A DNA stretch of 34,394 nucleotides, taken from assembly GCA_001779235.1 (NCBI GenBank), contig MFJN01000028.1:1-34394 (forward strand). Direction: 5' to 3'. The translations under genes were made by a program, and so were the position numbers. The notes beneath the pieces are model-generated. The model made no database searches. It saw only the letters and a program-made list of their open reading frames with translations, and was not told where the DNA came from. The number at the start of each line of letters is the position of its first letter. Position 1 is the first letter of the stretch. Below, one piece after another: positions 10,359 to 34,394 of the stretch. Source of the stretch: Candidatus Gottesmanbacteria bacterium RIFCSPHIGHO2_02_FULL_40_13. GTDB taxonomy: Bacteria; Patescibacteriota; Microgenomatia; 2-02-FULL-39-11.

Positions 10359-12023
10359 ATGGTCAAGTTGTTAAAAAGAACCGTGGAGATATTTACTCGA
10401 CAACAGACGAGTATTATATCGGCTGCTTCAGTTATCATGATCACCGTCGCCGTTTCGCGCGTCTTGGGACTTTTTCGCGACAGATTGCTGGCAGCAAGAT
10501 TTTCTCCTCAGGATTTAGGGGTTTATTATGCAGCTTTCAGGCTTCCCAATATGATTTTTGAGCTGTTGGTAATGGGAGCATTATCGACTGCCTTTATTCC
10601 GGTTTTCACCTCCTATCTTGACAGTAAAGGGAAAAAGGAAGCTTTTCACATGGCGAGTTCGTTGATAAACATAGGCCTCTTAGTATTTGGACTTCTTTGT
10701 CTGCCGATAGTTTTATTCACTAAACAGATTTCGATGCTGATAGCTCCGGGATTTAACAGTGAACAGCTTGAACTCATGAGTACATTTACCAGAATTATTG
10801 CTGTAGCACAGGTATTTCCTTTAATTGTCGGAAATTTTTTTACGGGCATTCTGCAATCCTTCAGAAATTTTTTTATACCGTCTTTGGCACCGGTTATTTA
10901 TAACTTAGGAATAATAATCGGTATTGTTTTTTTGACTCCGGCCATGGGGCTTTACGCGCCTGTAATTGGTGTGGTTATCGGAGCTTTTTTGTTTATGCTG
11001 ATTCAGGTTCCATTGACTTATTCGCTGGGTTTTCGCCATAAATGGAATCTTACCTTTTCTCATCCGGGAACGCGCAGTGTGGCACGACTGATGTTGCCAA
11101 GGACTTTGGGTTTGGCAGTTTCGCAGATTGATACAACGATTGATTTGATTTTATCTTCACTTTTAGGTTCAGGATCAGTGACAGTATTCACTTTTGCCCA
11201 GAATTTGCAACAGGTTCCAATAGGTCTTTTTGGTGCAAGCATTGCTCAGGCATCATTACCGGCTCTTTCATCTTTAAACGCCAGGAAAAATTTCGAGGAA
11301 TTTAAAAATATTTTTTTGTCTTCTTTTCACCAGATATTATTTTTGGTTATTCCTATATCCGCCATCCTGATTGTTTTAAGAATTCCCATGGTGAGACTGG
11401 TCTTCGGAGCATCCGCACTTTTTGATTGGGACAGTACTGTTATTACCGGTAAGACTCTTGCTTATTTCGGTATTTCATTATTTGCCCAGTCTTTGGTTCA
11501 TCTTATCGCGCGGGGTTATTATGCTCTGCACGATACTAAGACACCGGTGATAATTGGTGTCATTTCCATCATTATAAACACCACCCTGTCCGTATATTTT
11601 ATCATTTTTTTACACTTGCAGGTCTATGCATTGGGGTTATCCGCATCTGTTGCCAGTATTATCAATATGTTTTTGCTTCTAATTCTTTTTGACAGAAAAG
11701 TAAATTATTTTGATCGCTATAAACTGATAGTGCCGGCTTTGAAAATATTTCTGTCCGGTGCAGTGGCAGGAGTATTTTTGTATATTCCGGTCAAACTTCT
11801 GGATCAGTTGGTATTTGATACGACACGTACAATAAATCTGTTGATGCTGACGGGAATCTCGACTTTATTAGGCTTGTCAGTCTACCTGTTTTTAGCCTGG
11901 TTTTTGGAAGTACCGCAGATGAAAATGTTGTCAAAAATCATTATAAAGGCAAAGCAGTATAGACAGGGTGTGATGATAGATACAGCCTCGGAAATTATTA
12001 ACCCCCCAGGAATTGACATTTAA
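10359..12023 (+). CDS. murJ: Lipid II flippase MurJ (MviN)
   Basis: VSRVLGLFRDRLLAARF...GVYYAAFRLPNMIFELLVMGALSTAFIPVFTSYL; about 14 TM segments. Confidence 0.95.
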   Translation: MVKLLKRTVEIFTRQQTSIISAASVIMITVAVSRVLGLFRDRLLAARFSPQDLGVYYAAFRLPNMIFELLVMGALSTAFIPVFTSYLDSKGKKEAFHMASSLINIGLLVFGLLCLPIVLFTKQISMLIAPGFNSEQLELMSTFTRIIAVAQVFPLIVGNFFTGILQSFRNFFIPSLAPVIYNLGIIIGIVFLTPAMGLYAPVIGVVIGAFLFMLIQVPLTYSLGFRHKWNLTFSHPGTRSVARLMLPRTLGLAVSQIDTTIDLILSSLLGSGSVTVFTFAQNLQQVPIGLFGASIAQASLPALSSLNARKNFEEFKNIFLSSFHQILFLVIPISAILIVLRIPMVRLVFGASALFDWDSTVITGKTLAYFGISLFAQSLVHLIARGYYALHDTKTPVIIGVISIIINTTLSVYFIIFLHLQVYALGLSASVASIINMFLLLILFDRKVNYFDRYKLIVPALKIFLSGAVAGVFLYIPVKLLDQLVFDTTRTINLLMLTGISTLLGLSVYLFLAWFLEVPQMKMLSKIIIKAKQYRQGVMIDTASEIINPPGIDI

Positions 12024-12034
12024 TCAACGGATTT

Positions 12035-12074
12035 ATCCACCTTCGACCCGACGTATGTTGGGGCTTTGGCGGAT
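12035..12074. repeat. Nested palindromic element, copy 1 (40 nt), 12 nt after the murJ stop
   Basis: [ATCCACC]TTCG[ACCCGACGTATGTTGGGG]CTTT[GGCGGAT]: outer 7-nt arms pair with one mismatch; 18-nt core is near-palindromic with G.U pairs; same geometry as 34135..34174. Confidence 0.8.
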
Positions 12075-12096: not shown

Positions 12097-14001
12097 TCAT
12101 TTATCTACTTTTCCATCAAAAAACCTGCCGATAAGCTGTTCGTTTGTGATAACAATTTTAAGGTTGTCAATTGCCGCCTGAAACGGATAAATGGTTAATA
12201 CTTTTCCGTTTCTAATATCAACGGGTAAATTATTCCTGACCGGAGGTGAATTATCAACCGATAAAGACAAGCCTGTATAATCCCAAGAGGTGTCGATATG
12301 GTGCCAATTATTATCCCAAGTTTGTATTGGAACTGAAACGTACGTTTCCTCAACATCAGACTGAATCCCGAATTCAAGCAGGCCTTCATTTTTTTTGAGG
12401 TATAAGGATTTTGAATTATTCTCAGATGGGGAAAAGGCAACTTCATACATCAAAAATACGCTCTTATCATTCGTCCACATAGGCTTGATATCAAAGGATA
12501 CTGACCCTACAGGCTTCAGACTAAACTGCGGGTAAGTGAAAATTAGCGGATTGACGGATGAGAGAACCAAAGCCTGATCAAAAGAGCGGTCGAATTTTCC
12601 CGGGATAAATTGCGCTATTGGAGCTTTGGGATTTAACTCCAAATATAGAATGGAATTCGGTTGCATAATAAACGATTTGTTAATTACTCCACTTGAAGTC
12701 ACAATTTCGAAAAATCCGGATTGAGCCTGCAGCGGATAATCATATGTCAAATCGTATGAATATGGATCAAGATTGGTAAAAGTTATCGGAACATTTTCTA
12801 TATTTTTGCCGGAAAAATCGTAATTGGCGAGTATTACCCTGATACCTGTCGGTGTTTTTACCGCCATACTTCTAACATATGATCCTTGCCCCAACAGACT
12901 TAATTTATCACCTGTTATTTTACTCAAATATTCAAAAGCTTTATAGCGTGGTTTGGCTGTTAAAGGGCGACTTGCCAATTCATGCGTGAAAAGACCCCAT
13001 TTGCCTCCAAAAGGCGGAGGACCGTCTTTAATCTCAAAAACAAATGATCCTTCTATGGTGTTTTCAAAACTTGAGACGGCGGCTATGGTAAAGGCCGCGG
13101 CGATATCCTGATTATTTAATTCACTTTTTCCCGAATCGATACCCCATTCTGTCAGCATGAGGGGAACTTGAGAAAGAGACGGAAAATTTTTTAAATTATT
13201 CCTGATTTTGATACTGTCTTGTGCAAAAATTTCAGGATTGGTATGGTAGCGGTGCCAGGAATAAAAATCCAGTTGTAATTTATTTTGCACCACAAAGCTT
13301 AGGAAATCAGTCACCCAGGATGAGTAATAAGAGCCGACCGACGGGCCGCCCAAAAAAAATTTATTGACTGTCTTAGCTTCCGCTGCTCCTTTTGCCGCAT
13401 AATAATAGAGAAGCCGGTAATCTTTGTCACCGCTTAATTTAAATCCGCCAAACTGCTCAAGCTCAGGTTCATTCCAAACTTCATAATAAACCCCTGTTAA
13501 ATTTCTGTTATTTTTTCCGCTGTAATGCTCTACGGTATTTTTGACTAGATCTTTCCATAAGTCCCAGTTTTGCGGTAAATCGATCACTGAACCGCTTGAA
13601 GTGAAAACACCGGGCATGTAACTCAGGCTGAAAAAAGGCAAGGCGCCTGTCGCGATAATATCATCTACGGTATCATCTAATTTACTAAAGTCATAAACCA
13701 CTCTTTTATTAACCAGAGTAACCACGGAATAATAATCATAAATATGATCGATTCTAATAAATTTAGGAGCGAGAGGTTTAATTAAAGAAATGCTTGAATG
13801 CAGCATGGGAGGCGGTTCTTCTCCTCCTTGAGCAAGTCCCGACCAAACCGGTTTTATAGGACGAAGTATATTTTTTGCATCAATCACGATATCAGCTTTT
13901 CGGGGGTTGGCTTTACCGGTCAAAATTTGAGAATCTTTAACCGCGAAAAAGATTAGCGGAAATATCAGAATGAGAATGAGTAAAAAATACTTTTTCAGCA
14001 T
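12097..14001 (-). CDS. GH39-like glycoside hydrolase (beta-xylosidase-type) with C-terminal LamG/concanavalin-like domain
   Basis: GVYYEVWNEPELEQFGG (acid/base NEP motif), QVPLMLTEWGIDSG (nucleophile motif), FYSWHRYH; C-terminal MTYEVAFSP-like/HHIDTSWDYTGLSLSVDNSPP region; N-terminal signal/TM. Confidence 0.8.
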   Translation of the reverse strand: MLKKYFLLILILIFPLIFFAVKDSQILTGKANPRKADIVIDAKNILRPIKPVWSGLAQGGEEPPPMLHSSISLIKPLAPKFIRIDHIYDYYSVVTLVNKRVVYDFSKLDDTVDDIIATGALPFFSLSYMPGVFTSSGSVIDLPQNWDLWKDLVKNTVEHYSGKNNRNLTGVYYEVWNEPELEQFGGFKLSGDKDYRLLYYYAAKGAAEAKTVNKFFLGGPSVGSYYSSWVTDFLSFVVQNKLQLDFYSWHRYHTNPEIFAQDSIKIRNNLKNFPSLSQVPLMLTEWGIDSGKSELNNQDIAAAFTIAAVSSFENTIEGSFVFEIKDGPPPFGGKWGLFTHELASRPLTAKPRYKAFEYLSKITGDKLSLLGQGSYVRSMAVKTPTGIRVILANYDFSGKNIENVPITFTNLDPYSYDLTYDYPLQAQSGFFEIVTSSGVINKSFIMQPNSILYLELNPKAPIAQFIPGKFDRSFDQALVLSSVNPLIFTYPQFSLKPVGSVSFDIKPMWTNDKSVFLMYEVAFSPSENNSKSLYLKKNEGLLEFGIQSDVEETYVSVPIQTWDNNWHHIDTSWDYTGLSLSVDNSPPVRNNLPVDIRNGKVLTIYPFQAAIDNLKIVITNEQLIGRFFDGKVDK

Positions 14002-14863: not shown

Positions 14864-15334
14864 ATGTCAAAAAAACAAATATATAAAAATCCGGAAGAAT
14901 TGAAGACAGAGTTAGAAACGTGGAAAAATAAATACCTGAGGATTCTGGCAGATTATCAGAATTTGGAAAAAAGAATAAAAGAAGCCAGAGAAAACGAAGT
15001 GAAATATGCTTCAGGAAAGATTATCTTAAAAATTTTACCTGTGTTTGATATTTTAGAGCAGGTGGTGAAAATTAACAATGATCAGGGATTAATTTTAGCT
15101 TTAAAACAATTTAGCGAAGTGTTAACCCGCGAAAATGTGCAAAAAATAGAGGTGTTAGGGCGTGAGTTTGATCCGCTGACTATGGAGTGTCTGGAGGTTG
15201 TACCTGGTGAAAAAGATAATCTGGTAGTTCAAGAACTAAGAACAGGTTATAAAATGTATGATAAAGTTATCAGAACGGCCCGGGTCAAAGTAGAAAAAAA
15301 GAAGTTAGAAAATGTTATACCCTCCTTCGCGTAA
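14864..15334 (+). CDS. grpE: Nucleotide exchange factor GrpE
   Basis: WKNKYLRILADYQNLEKRIKEARENEVKYA... long coiled coil; between hrcA and dnaK. Confidence 0.92.
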   Translation: MSKKQIYKNPEELKTELETWKNKYLRILADYQNLEKRIKEARENEVKYASGKIILKILPVFDILEQVVKINNDQGLILALKQFSEVLTRENVQKIEVLGREFDPLTMECLEVVPGEKDNLVVQELRTGYKMYDKVIRTARVKVEKKKLENVIPSFA

Positions 15335-15361
15335 AGCTTAGGCAGGTAAAAGGAGGAAAAT

Positions 15362-26411: not shown

Positions 26412-28265
26412 TTAAATTAGGGTGGCGTAAATTCTTCGGCTATTGCTACCGGCAGCCTCCTCTTTTATTATCTTAAACTTTCCCAAGAGTCCTGTAAAGT
26501 CGACGTGGGGTCCGCCGCAGACCTCTTTGGAAAAATTGCCGATAGAATAGACTTTTACTTTTGCCGGATATTTTACTCCGGGGACGGTTAGAGCGCTATT
26601 TTTCAAAGCCTGTTCCAATTCTGTAATCGACATATTTACACGCAAATTCTCCTTAATCTTAAGATTCACAATTTTCTCGATATCGAGTATTTCCTGATCG
26701 GTCAGTTTTTTTGGGTGGGTAAAATCAAAACGCAGACGCTGTACGGTAATATTGCTCCCTTTTTGCCGGACATGATCACCCAGGATGTCCCGCAGAGTTT
26801 GTTGCAGAAGGTGCGTTGCGGTATGCAGACGGGTGATAACCTCTGAATGATTCTGCAGTCCGCCTTTGAACATTCCCTTACTGGTATTTCTGGATAATTC
26901 CTGATGTTTCTGAAATTCTTTCTGAAACTCTCCAAAGTCAATCTTTTGTCCTCGTTCCAGAGCTAATTCTGCTGTTAACTCCCAGGGAAAGCCGTATGTT
27001 TGCAGCAGATCGAAGGCTAATTTTCCGTCAACGACAGGTTGTTTTTCCAGTAGTTTTATTCCTTTATTTAATACCTGTTCAAACCTTTTTATTTCTTCAC
27101 TCAGGGTAGAGGTAATGTTGGAGAATTCCTTCGTCTCAGGATAAAGATAGACATTGCTATATATTTGACCGATGACCTGACAAATTTGTATTCCGGCTTC
27201 AATTGTGGAACATTGCAGATGGAGTTTATGCATTTTCACAACAGATCGTCTGATAAGACGGCGCAAAATATAACCCTGTTGTTTGTTGCCGGGTTGCAGT
27301 CCTTCTGCAAGCATGAAGGTGGCTGCCTTCAGGTGATCTGTGATGATACGCATGGGTGGCTGATTGATCGGATCGGAATATTTTTTACCCGAAAGCCTGG
27401 ATAGTAATTCAATGACCGGAAAAAATAAATCTGATTGGAAGATATCGGGATTATTTTCGGTTGCAGCAATAAGCCGTTCCAGCCCACCCCCGAAGTCCAC
27501 ATTTTTATTTGGGAGTTCTGTGAGAGTGCCGTCAGCCTGTTTTTGATACTGCATAAAAACGCTGTTGCCAATTTCCAGAAAATGTCCGCATTCACAGTTT
27601 GGGTGACACTGTTTTCCAAACTTTGGGTCATGGGGAATTTGAGTAAATTCAAAAAAAACCTCACTGTCCGGCCCACCGGGTTCCCCTGGTGGCATTTTTT
27701 CCGGTTCCCCGGACCTGCTCCACCAATTTTTAGAAGCAGGGTAGAGGAAAATCCGTCCTTGCTTCGCCGAAGTTCCACTATTGGACGAAGGCGAGTCGAC
27801 AACTTTTGCATCAATCCCTACGCTTGCGTAAATCTCTTTCCATATCTCAACAGACTCGGTATCTTTAGGGACAATCTGATCACCTTCATAAACCGTGACA
27901 TAAAGTTTATTGGGATCAAGCTTTAATACTTTAGTCAGAAACGTAAAAAACCATCTCAGCTGGTCATTTTTAAAATAATCTCCCAGAGACCAGTTGCCGA
28001 GCATTTCAAAAAAAGTACTATGCCGGTTGTCACCGACCTCATTTATATCCTGAGCGCGGAATGATTTTTGGCTGTCAGTAAGCCTTTGGCCTAGGGGGTG
28101 TTTTTCCCCGAGTAAAAACGGAATTAAAGGCTGCATGCCAGAGCTGGTAAAAAGGGTAGTCGGATCGTTTTCAGGAATTATGGGAGCAGAAGGAATTACC
28201 TGGTGATTTCTTGGCGATTCCAGAAAAAAATCCAGATATTTTTTGCGAAGTTCCCGATGAGTCAT
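26412..28265 (-). CDS. alaS: Alanyl-tRNA synthetase, short form (617 aa; catalytic plus editing domain, no C-Ala)
   Basis: LRKKYLDFFLESPRNHQVIPSAPIIPENDPTTLFTSSGMQPLIPFLLGEKHPLGQRLTDSQKSFRAQDINEVGDNRHSTFFEMLGNWSLGDYFK; editing HTATHLL and CGGPHVDFTG. Confidence 0.95.
   Translation of the reverse strand: MTHRELRKKYLDFFLESPRNHQVIPSAPIIPENDPTTLFTSSGMQPLIPFLLGEKHPLGQRLTDSQKSFRAQDINEVGDNRHSTFFEMLGNWSLGDYFKNDQLRWFFTFLTKVLKLDPNKLYVTVYEGDQIVPKDTESVEIWKEIYASVGIDAKVVDSPSSNSGTSAKQGRIFLYPASKNWWSRSGEPEKMPPGEPGGPDSEVFFEFTQIPHDPKFGKQCHPNCECGHFLEIGNSVFMQYQKQADGTLTELPNKNVDFGGGLERLIAATENNPDIFQSDLFFPVIELLSRLSGKKYSDPINQPPMRIITDHLKAATFMLAEGLQPGNKQQGYILRRLIRRSVVKMHKLHLQCSTIEAGIQICQVIGQIYSNVYLYPETKEFSNITSTLSEEIKRFEQVLNKGIKLLEKQPVVDGKLAFDLLQTYGFPWELTAELALERGQKIDFGEFQKEFQKHQELSRNTSKGMFKGGLQNHSEVITRLHTATHLLQQTLRDILGDHVRQKGSNITVQRLRFDFTHPKKLTDQEILDIEKIVNLKIKENLRVNMSITELEQALKNSALTVPGVKYPAKVKVYSIGNFSKEVCGGPHVDFTGLLGKFKIIKEEAAGSNSRRIYATLI
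27764..27794. repeat. Diverged palindromic element, in frame inside alaS
   Basis: Minus strand [TCGCC]TTCG[TCCAATAGTGGAA]CTTC[GGCGA]; shares CGCCTTCG ... GGCG arms with the thyA and murJ copies; encodes SPSSNSGTSA. Confidence 0.6.
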
Positions 28266-32904: not shown

Positions 32905-33697
32905 TTTTATTAACTTTACACGGGTAAGAGGAATCGTCATGCGTCATATTTATGAATGGAGGAGGAATTTAGACCGCGTGGTTGATTCTTTCTGGTGGGC
33001 TACGATTGATATTGTCTTTTGGGGGTTGACAGCTAATTATCTAAAACAAACCGGAACGACTAATCCGCAAATAGTTTATTTATTCATAGGCGGGATATTA
33101 CTTTGGGTGATTGTCCAAAACTCTCAAAGAGATATTAATATGCCGCTTTTAAACGATGCTTGGAATAGAAATCTTATCAATCTTTTTACTACTCCCATAA
33201 GACTGCGAGAGTTTATCCTGGGAACAATTATCTTGGGGCTTTTCAAATTAACCCTCACGGTGATATTCTTGGCAGTGATTGCATATTTGCTCTATCAGTT
33301 TAATATTTTTATTTTCGGTTTCTATCTCATACCTGCAGTTATTAATCTCATACTGGTTGGCTGGTGGATCGGATTTTTGATCAACGGACTGATACTTCGA
33401 TTCGGCTATCGGATAGAATCATTTGCCTGGGCCTTTATCTTTGTTATTTATCCATTCTCCGCAGTAATATATCCGGTGAGTGCTTTACCTGGTTGGGCAA
33501 GATTTATCTCAGCATTTCTTCCAACAAGTTATATTTTCGAAAATATGAGAAGCATCTTATTTACAGGAACTTTCTCAATTCAATACATCTTGATAAGCCT
33601 ATCATTAAATTTGATCTATATCGTGTTATCCCTTCTTTTTATGAATCGGATGTTTACAGAAGCTTTAAAAAATGCCAAACTAGTAAAATTAAATTAA
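32897..33697 (+). CDS. ABC-2 type transporter permease
   Basis: Six-TM profile; NPQIVYLFIGGILLWVIVQNSQRDIN, YPVSALPGWARFISAFLPTSYIFENMRSILF; overlaps the ATPase gene by 8 nt. Confidence 0.88.
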   Translation: MNNFINFTRVRGIVMRHIYEWRRNLDRVVDSFWWATIDIVFWGLTANYLKQTGTTNPQIVYLFIGGILLWVIVQNSQRDINMPLLNDAWNRNLINLFTTPIRLREFILGTIILGLFKLTLTVIFLAVIAYLLYQFNIFIFGFYLIPAVINLILVGWWIGFLINGLILRFGYRIESFAWAFIFVIYPFSAVIYPVSALPGWARFISAFLPTSYIFENMRSILFTGTFSIQYILISLSLNLIYIVLSLLFMNRMFTEALKNAKLVKLN

Positions 33698-33706
33698 TAT
33701 TTACTT

Positions 33707-34394
33707 ATGCCAAAGAAAGATAATCTGCATACCGAATACCAGTATTTAAACCTGTTGGAGGATATTCTGGAAAACGGCAGTTGGAAAATAAGCCATTCGA
33801 CAGGAGTCAAACTCAAAAGCGTTTTCGGCAGGCAAATCCGCTTTGACCTCTCCCGCGGATTTCCGCTTCTGACTACCAAAAAAGTTTTTGTGCGGGGAAT
33901 TATTCATGAGCTTATCTGGTTTTTATCGGGAAGCTCCAATATTAAATATTTAATTGACAATAACGTCCATATCTGGGACGAGTGGGCATATAAGAAATAT
34001 TTGTGGGCGGTTGAGGCTAAAAAAGCTAAGAAAATAAATTACGATGATTTTATAAGTTGTATACAAACCGACAAAAAGTTTCTCAAAAAATGGGGTGAAC
34101 TCGGACCGGTTTACGGGGTGCAATGGCGTAATTGGCCCGCCTTCGCCCCGACGTACGTCGGGGTTACGGCGGGTAAACCCAAAGGTGGCGTAAAAACTGT
34201 CGACCAGCTGGGTTGGGCTATTGAAAAAATCAAAAAATATCCCCAAAAAAAACACTACATCATTTCCGCCTGGAATGCCGGCTGTATTTACGAGATGTCC
34301 GGCAGTCACGCGGCTTCGATGGTAATAGCTCCCTGCCACACTCTTTTCCACATCAATATCACCGGAGATAAATTATCGCTTCTGCTTTATCAAA
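33707..34394 (+). CDS. thyA: Thymidylate synthase, partial (runs off window end)
   Basis: From ATG 33707: MPKKDNLHTEYQYLNLLEDILENG...GRQIRFDLSRGFPLLTTKKVFVRGIIHELIWFLSGSSNIKYL...ELGPVYGVQWRNW...APCHTLFHINITGDKLSLLLYQ; no stop before the window end, hence absent from the track. Confidence 0.95.
   Translation, partial: MPKKDNLHTEYQYLNLLEDILENGSWKISHSTGVKLKSVFGRQIRFDLSRGFPLLTTKKVFVRGIIHELIWFLSGSSNIKYLIDNNVHIWDEWAYKKYLWAVEAKKAKKINYDDFISCIQTDKKFLKKWGELGPVYGVQWRNWPAFAPTYVGVTAGKPKGGVKTVDQLGWAIEKIKKYPQKKHYIISAWNAGCIYEMSGSHAASMVIAPCHTLFHINITGDKLSLLLYQ
34135..34174. repeat. Nested palindromic element, best copy (40 nt), in frame inside thyA
   Basis: [GCCCGCC]TTCG[CCCCGACGTACGTCGGGG]TTAC[GGCGGGT]: perfect 18-nt palindromic core, 4+4 internal loop, outer stem 6 bp plus one G.U. 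Confidence 0.9.

Follow-up and report, generated by a model that had tools for sequence, protein, structure and literature searches.

The thyA gene at the end of the 34,394-nucleotide window, the whole stretch of DNA analyzed here, carries a 42-nt palindromic element within its reading frame, and we put the probability that this segment is an in-frame insertion at roughly 85%. The element is composite, with an 18-nt inner palindrome enclosed by the outer arms of a repeat termed REP-I; both parts recur elsewhere in the genome, also in frame in other protein genes, and REP-I variants occupy the same site of thymidylate synthase (ThyA) in several species. The source genome is a 1.29-Mb draft whose nearest named ThyA relatives are Candidatus Gottesmanbacteria, which bears out the earlier note's assignment of the DNA to a CPR genome. 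The host gene and the parts of its element are the following.

33707..34393, + strand: thyA (thymidylate synthase; Pfam PF00303, E 1.6e-52; NCBIfam TIGR03284), continuing beyond the window end, with an open frame of 335 codons on the contig
34136..34177, + strand: in-frame composite palindromic element (REP-I with inner palindrome), 42 nt, encoding PAFAPTYVGVTAGK
34136..34141, + strand: outer REP-I arm CCCGCC, followed by TTCG
34146..34163, no strand assigned: inner palindrome CCCCGACGTACGTCGGGG, perfect, 18 nt
34168..34173, + strand: outer REP-I arm GGCGGG, preceded by TTAC

The hairpin at 34136-34173 is organized as CCCGCC-TTCG-CCCCGACGTACGTCGGGG-TTAC-GGCGGG and lies within the thyA reading frame, which reads WPAFAPTYVGVTAGKP across the element, with WPAFAPTYVGVTAGKPK as a peptide stretch of the predicted translation of the insert. 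The earlier note had described the perfect palindrome, its arms, and its frame correctly, whereas its bounds of 34135-34174 are one base too wide at each side. The element shows a GC content of 0.69, compared to 0.43 for thyA, and scores 27.8 with the REP-I covariance model R2. A search of positions 33600-34394 against Rfam, up to an E value of 1, shows no known structured RNA.

The insertion is evident from the length of the connector between the QWRxW motif and the xDQL helix, which is exactly 7 residues in 40 of 50 ThyA sequences, in agreement with the few residues expected at this place, and 21 residues in the ThyA described here. Excision of 34136-34177 in silico yields GPVYGVQWRNW-PKGGVKT-VDQL, bringing back the normal 7-residue connector. 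The net insertion (34136-34177 or an equivalent register) comprises 42 nt, or 14 residues; an extra segment had been proposed before, at a slightly smaller size of about 12 residues. HMMER alignments with solved thymidylate synthases show a gap at the insert position. A partial AlphaFold model (229 window residues, 31 sequences) has a mean pLDDT of 70 and a fold matching thymidylate synthases, with residues 147-159 located between two strands at pLDDT values below 50, as would be expected of a flexible loop; the earlier note had predicted a surface loop. The family domain is present, and the catalytic Cys region is intact as previously stated, with P209-C210-H211 invariant in the alignment; the insert is presumably neutral for the enzyme. 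Most ThyA orthologues are devoid of the segment. In line with the earlier note's prediction, the alignment shows an insertion in this ThyA and in those of a few relatives alone. The independent assembly G012, with a ThyA of 85% identity, contains the same element in this gene, which rules out an assembly artefact. No target-site duplication at the insertions is established beyond CCC.

REP-I variants are found in the ThyA of five species (the present one, G012, G002, G013, and nzgw407), all starting at the same nucleotide, with CCCGCC or CCCACC directly after TGG, and differing in their centers. In a ThyA tree calculated with the connector left out, a single clade of the five carriers is rejected (p-AU 0.001) and at least 4 changes are needed, which fits repeated gain or a single gain followed by several exact losses. 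For RPE-4/6/7, the genome paper of R. japonica describes the same ambiguity (PMC3767692). The same inner palindrome is common to the elements of the present genome and G012, which probably go back to a single insertion; those of the other carriers look independent. In an alternative scenario, REP-I entered thyA once, in an ancestor, after which its inner part diverged and the element was precisely lost several times. This would explain the common starting nucleotide and the event shared with G012, and exact deletion could come about by direct-repeat slippage, given CCCGCC or a remnant of it at both ends. This scenario is disfavored and rather unlikely, as the AU test rejects the five-carrier clade, the connectors of sister species contain no element, and the inner parts are unlike in both length and sequence. 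The connector of nzgw407 (L073) may hold two adjacent inserts: after a simple REP-I comes a further segment that resembles a repeat (GTGGTGAGCGAAGTCGAACCA).

The inner palindrome is dispersed through the genome, as the earlier note had predicted. With up to 3 mismatches allowed, it occurs at 9 places, compared to 0 for the reversed-pattern control, and the window contains 2 matches, compared to none in 100 shuffles. Besides the thyA element, the window holds three repeat copies.

12037..12072, + strand: second copy of the composite element, 81% identical to 34137-34172
15320..15351, + strand: degenerate REP-I copy (model R2, E 0.0083; ORF list)
27758..27795, − strand: REP-I in alanyl-tRNA synthetase (AlaRS), in frame (model R2, E 0.0046)

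The composite copy at 12037-12072 is situated between the convergent ORFs 10359-12023 (+) and 12097-14001 (−). Elsewhere in the genome the inner palindrome lies in frame within leucyl-tRNA synthetase (LeuRS; identified by NCBIfam TIGR00396) as ..TDNREPSFAPTCVGATAGKQIT.. and within a membrane protein as ..SAEAPTYVGEKVDK.., and the ThyA, LeuRS, and membrane-protein copies have the peptide (A)PT[YC]VG in common. The LeuRS enzymes of relatives are without the palindrome segment and represent empty sites; in some of them the linker holds other simple repeats. In the relatives L199 and L202, this linker contains CAGAATTCAGAAGT-like and TTTCGAA-like units that read SEFRSQKSEF and NFEFRISN. The inner palindrome is found also in hairpins with other arms, such as AGATCYCTCCACTC..CGGGATGAC. 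One copy, at about 2320-2376 of L005 between two tRNA-Ala genes, comes right after an apparent tRNA 3' half (T-arm and acceptor) that ARAGORN does not call.

The outer arms constitute a repeat family in their own right with exchangeable inner palindromes; this observation goes beyond the earlier note, as does the extension of in-frame inserts past thyA. The REP-I pattern CCGCCTWCG..CGGCGG is present in all 15 of the family genomes examined, with 36 matches compared to 1 for the control, and its center varies from a short CTAAAG-like loop to TCCCGATTTAATCGGGA, CCTGCCTGCCGGCAGGCAGG, or the inner palindrome CCCCGACGTACGTCGGGG. The search with fixed arms overlooked degenerate copies, and covariance models were added; that of REP-I is built from simple copies only, as mixed inner lengths misalign in MAFFT. 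REP-I copies occur both outside genes and in open frames. The AlaRS in the window (26412-28265, −) reads AKV[VDSPSSNSGTSAKQ]GRIF, and the relative L298 reads AKVGERIF where this genome has AKVVDSPSSNSGTSAKQGRIF; relatives are without the segment. The copy at 15320-15351 provides the C-terminal PSFA and the stop codon of a grpE-like ORF (14864-15334). Further in-frame copies in the same genome are found in arginyl-tRNA synthetase (ArgRS), with three tandem 60-nt copies (EPAYAELSSATAGEQTKDNR), in IleRS, and in a glycosyltransferase. Across the proteins with in-frame REP-I, certain peptides recur, for example, PAFAKATAGK and LPAEALAKAG. In relatives, the hosts are a transketolase, an oxidoreductase, an AMP-binding enzyme, a spermidine-synthase-like protein, and RuvA.

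A second family of palindromes, with the pattern CACCYCRGGGG..CCCCYGRGGTG, is unrelated to REP-I and has about 10 copies in this genome according to a covariance model; a search of the window shows none. Its in-frame hosts are LeuRS, ArgRS twice (one copy with another palindrome nested inside), and, identified by eye, putative GatB, PyrF, PheT, and NAD(P)HX dehydratase; gene names without the backing of a profile search are our reading of the sequence. Among 24 copies from relatives, each the best match of its genome and chosen without regard to position, 17 lie within open frames that span 150 codons or more, and several are contained in LeuRS at other positions. The family is much more common in G009 (48 matches) and G075 (23 matches) than in other relatives. 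One ArgRS (L161, G000:C47) contains five in-frame palindromic inserts, three of REP-I and two of the second family. Altogether, 11 host genes with in-frame inserts are found in this genome (L006, L224, L227, L229-L233, L253, L257, L259, L297, and L316-L321), and 6 of them encode LeuRS, ArgRS, AlaRS, IleRS, PheT, and GatB, an apparent overrepresentation of aminoacyl-tRNA synthetases and GatB that refers to the raw count regardless of gene length. G029 (L148-L156), which belongs to a different family of the class, contains nine copies of CCCCGACG[TT/AA/TC/GA]CGTCGGGG-like palindromes with a varying center and no REP-I arms.

Retention of the hairpins for a role at the RNA or DNA level, such as translation pausing, mRNA stability, transcription termination, or protein binding, is improbable. 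The hairpins of the coding strand are strong, the palindrome is kept by compensatory variants such as GATGTACATC, and a terminator would fit between the two convergent ORFs, but the copy of any given gene is sporadic among relatives and the host genes are functionally diverse. Mitochondrial bypass elements serve as a comparison for GC-rich hairpins within coding sequence, and the resemblance could suggest that the hairpin is left untranslated through ribosome bypass or excision from the mRNA. This is highly improbable, as the segments in ThyA, LeuRS, ArgRS, AlaRS, IleRS, PheT, GatB, and PyrF are in frame and free of stops, neither of which bypass or excision would require. A loop arising from ordinary codon changes with a palindrome by chance might be suggested by the connectors of 12 to 13 residues without palindromes in L029, L058, L060, and L062 but is refuted by the dispersed copies, with identical 18-mers elsewhere in the genome and none in shuffles and with the same peptide in unrelated proteins.

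For the preferred reading, an in-frame insertion of a mobile element, we propose a multistep course. A small nonautonomous palindromic repeat, REP-I with its inner palindrome, would insert into thyA, its single-stranded hairpin being moved by a tyrosine (Y1/HUH) transposase of the REP-associated type whose gene lies elsewhere in the genome. The insert would be retained because it is free of stops, has a length that is a multiple of three bases, and lies in the connector loop, and it would be translated as a flexible loop of 14 residues. Insertions that break genes would be purged by selection, leaving extragenic copies or tolerated loop peptides. Spread through the genome's REP-type tyrosine transposases appears to be the likeliest mechanism, with the transposase step taken alone standing at about even odds. 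The genome contains six Y1 transposase genes (PF01797 matches over the cut-off). One of them directly follows the ArgRS gene with its three REP-I copies; this gene, the single one tested, matches REP_Tyr_transpos with an E value of 7.2e-12 and 45 bits, the curated cut-off being 80. A second Y1 gene lies about 500 bases from a REP-I copy. Thus, two of the six show REP-I within about 600 bases, and none is found near the other four.

These results lead to a tentative wider picture, held at somewhat below even odds, in which the Microgenomates harbor modular mobile palindromes with constant outer arms and exchangeable inner ones, one inner palindrome entering several outer hairpins. Such elements would persist preferentially in essential genes, above all those of aminoacyl-tRNA synthetases, and would bring peptide modules to the same permissive sites again and again. 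In-frame invasion by palindromes has so far been a specialty of Rickettsia along with scattered other cases, and several families in the Microgenomates (CPR) suggest a general way for small bacterial genomes to gain peptide segments in essential enzymes. The ThyA connector, with different variants in neighboring species, offers a natural experiment on the choice of insertion site and on tolerance. For annotation, loops of CPR proteins such as PAFAKATAGK and HLGGxRMDSPEVEES should be regarded as element derived and not as functional domains.

The closest known counterparts are the Rickettsia palindromic elements (RPEs), to which the earlier note had aptly likened the thyA element. The literature on RPEs describes dispersed in-frame palindromes in solvent-exposed regions encoded by conserved housekeeping genes, with orthologous sites sometimes holding different element groups (PMC3767692, PMC2229807), and places them in Rickettsia and Wolbachia at about 100 to 150 bp (PMC3767692). 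The elements described here are likewise dispersed palindromes in frame in conserved protein genes but are smaller at 25 to 50 nt (42 nt in thyA), and they show nested palindromes, a modular feature that the accessible RPE texts do not report. GTAG- and CGTC-tagged REPs are 20- to 40-bp palindromes linked to tyrosine transposases, mostly extragenic with some copies within ORFs (PMC3733652). REP-I shares their size class and the intragenic location of some copies; in contrast to them, it is without the conserved terminal GTAG/CGTC and carries CTAC or CTTC inside the stem, and most of the sampled copies of the second family (17/24) are intragenic. As in the REPIN/REPtron system (REP plus RAYT transposase), REP-like hairpins and Y1 transposases occur in one genome, and one of the transposases gives a partial match to REP_Tyr_transpos; the differences are the few copies, the lack of a paired REPIN organization among those seen, and the weak association with Y1 genes. 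ERIC and the 107-bp form of Correia/NEMIS are also small mobile repeats (MITEs) described as fused in frame to genes (PMC2229807); they measure about 100 to 200 bp with terminal inverted repeats, whereas here the whole element is a hairpin of 25 to 50 nt. A search of openly accessible journal papers found no such elements reported from CPR bacteria and no paper joining Patescibacteria with "repetitive extragenic palindromic." The elements work like RPEs and intragenic REPs, with no matching published family found, and what is new is the phylum, the modular palindrome-in-palindrome construction, and the repeated occupation of one site in ThyA.
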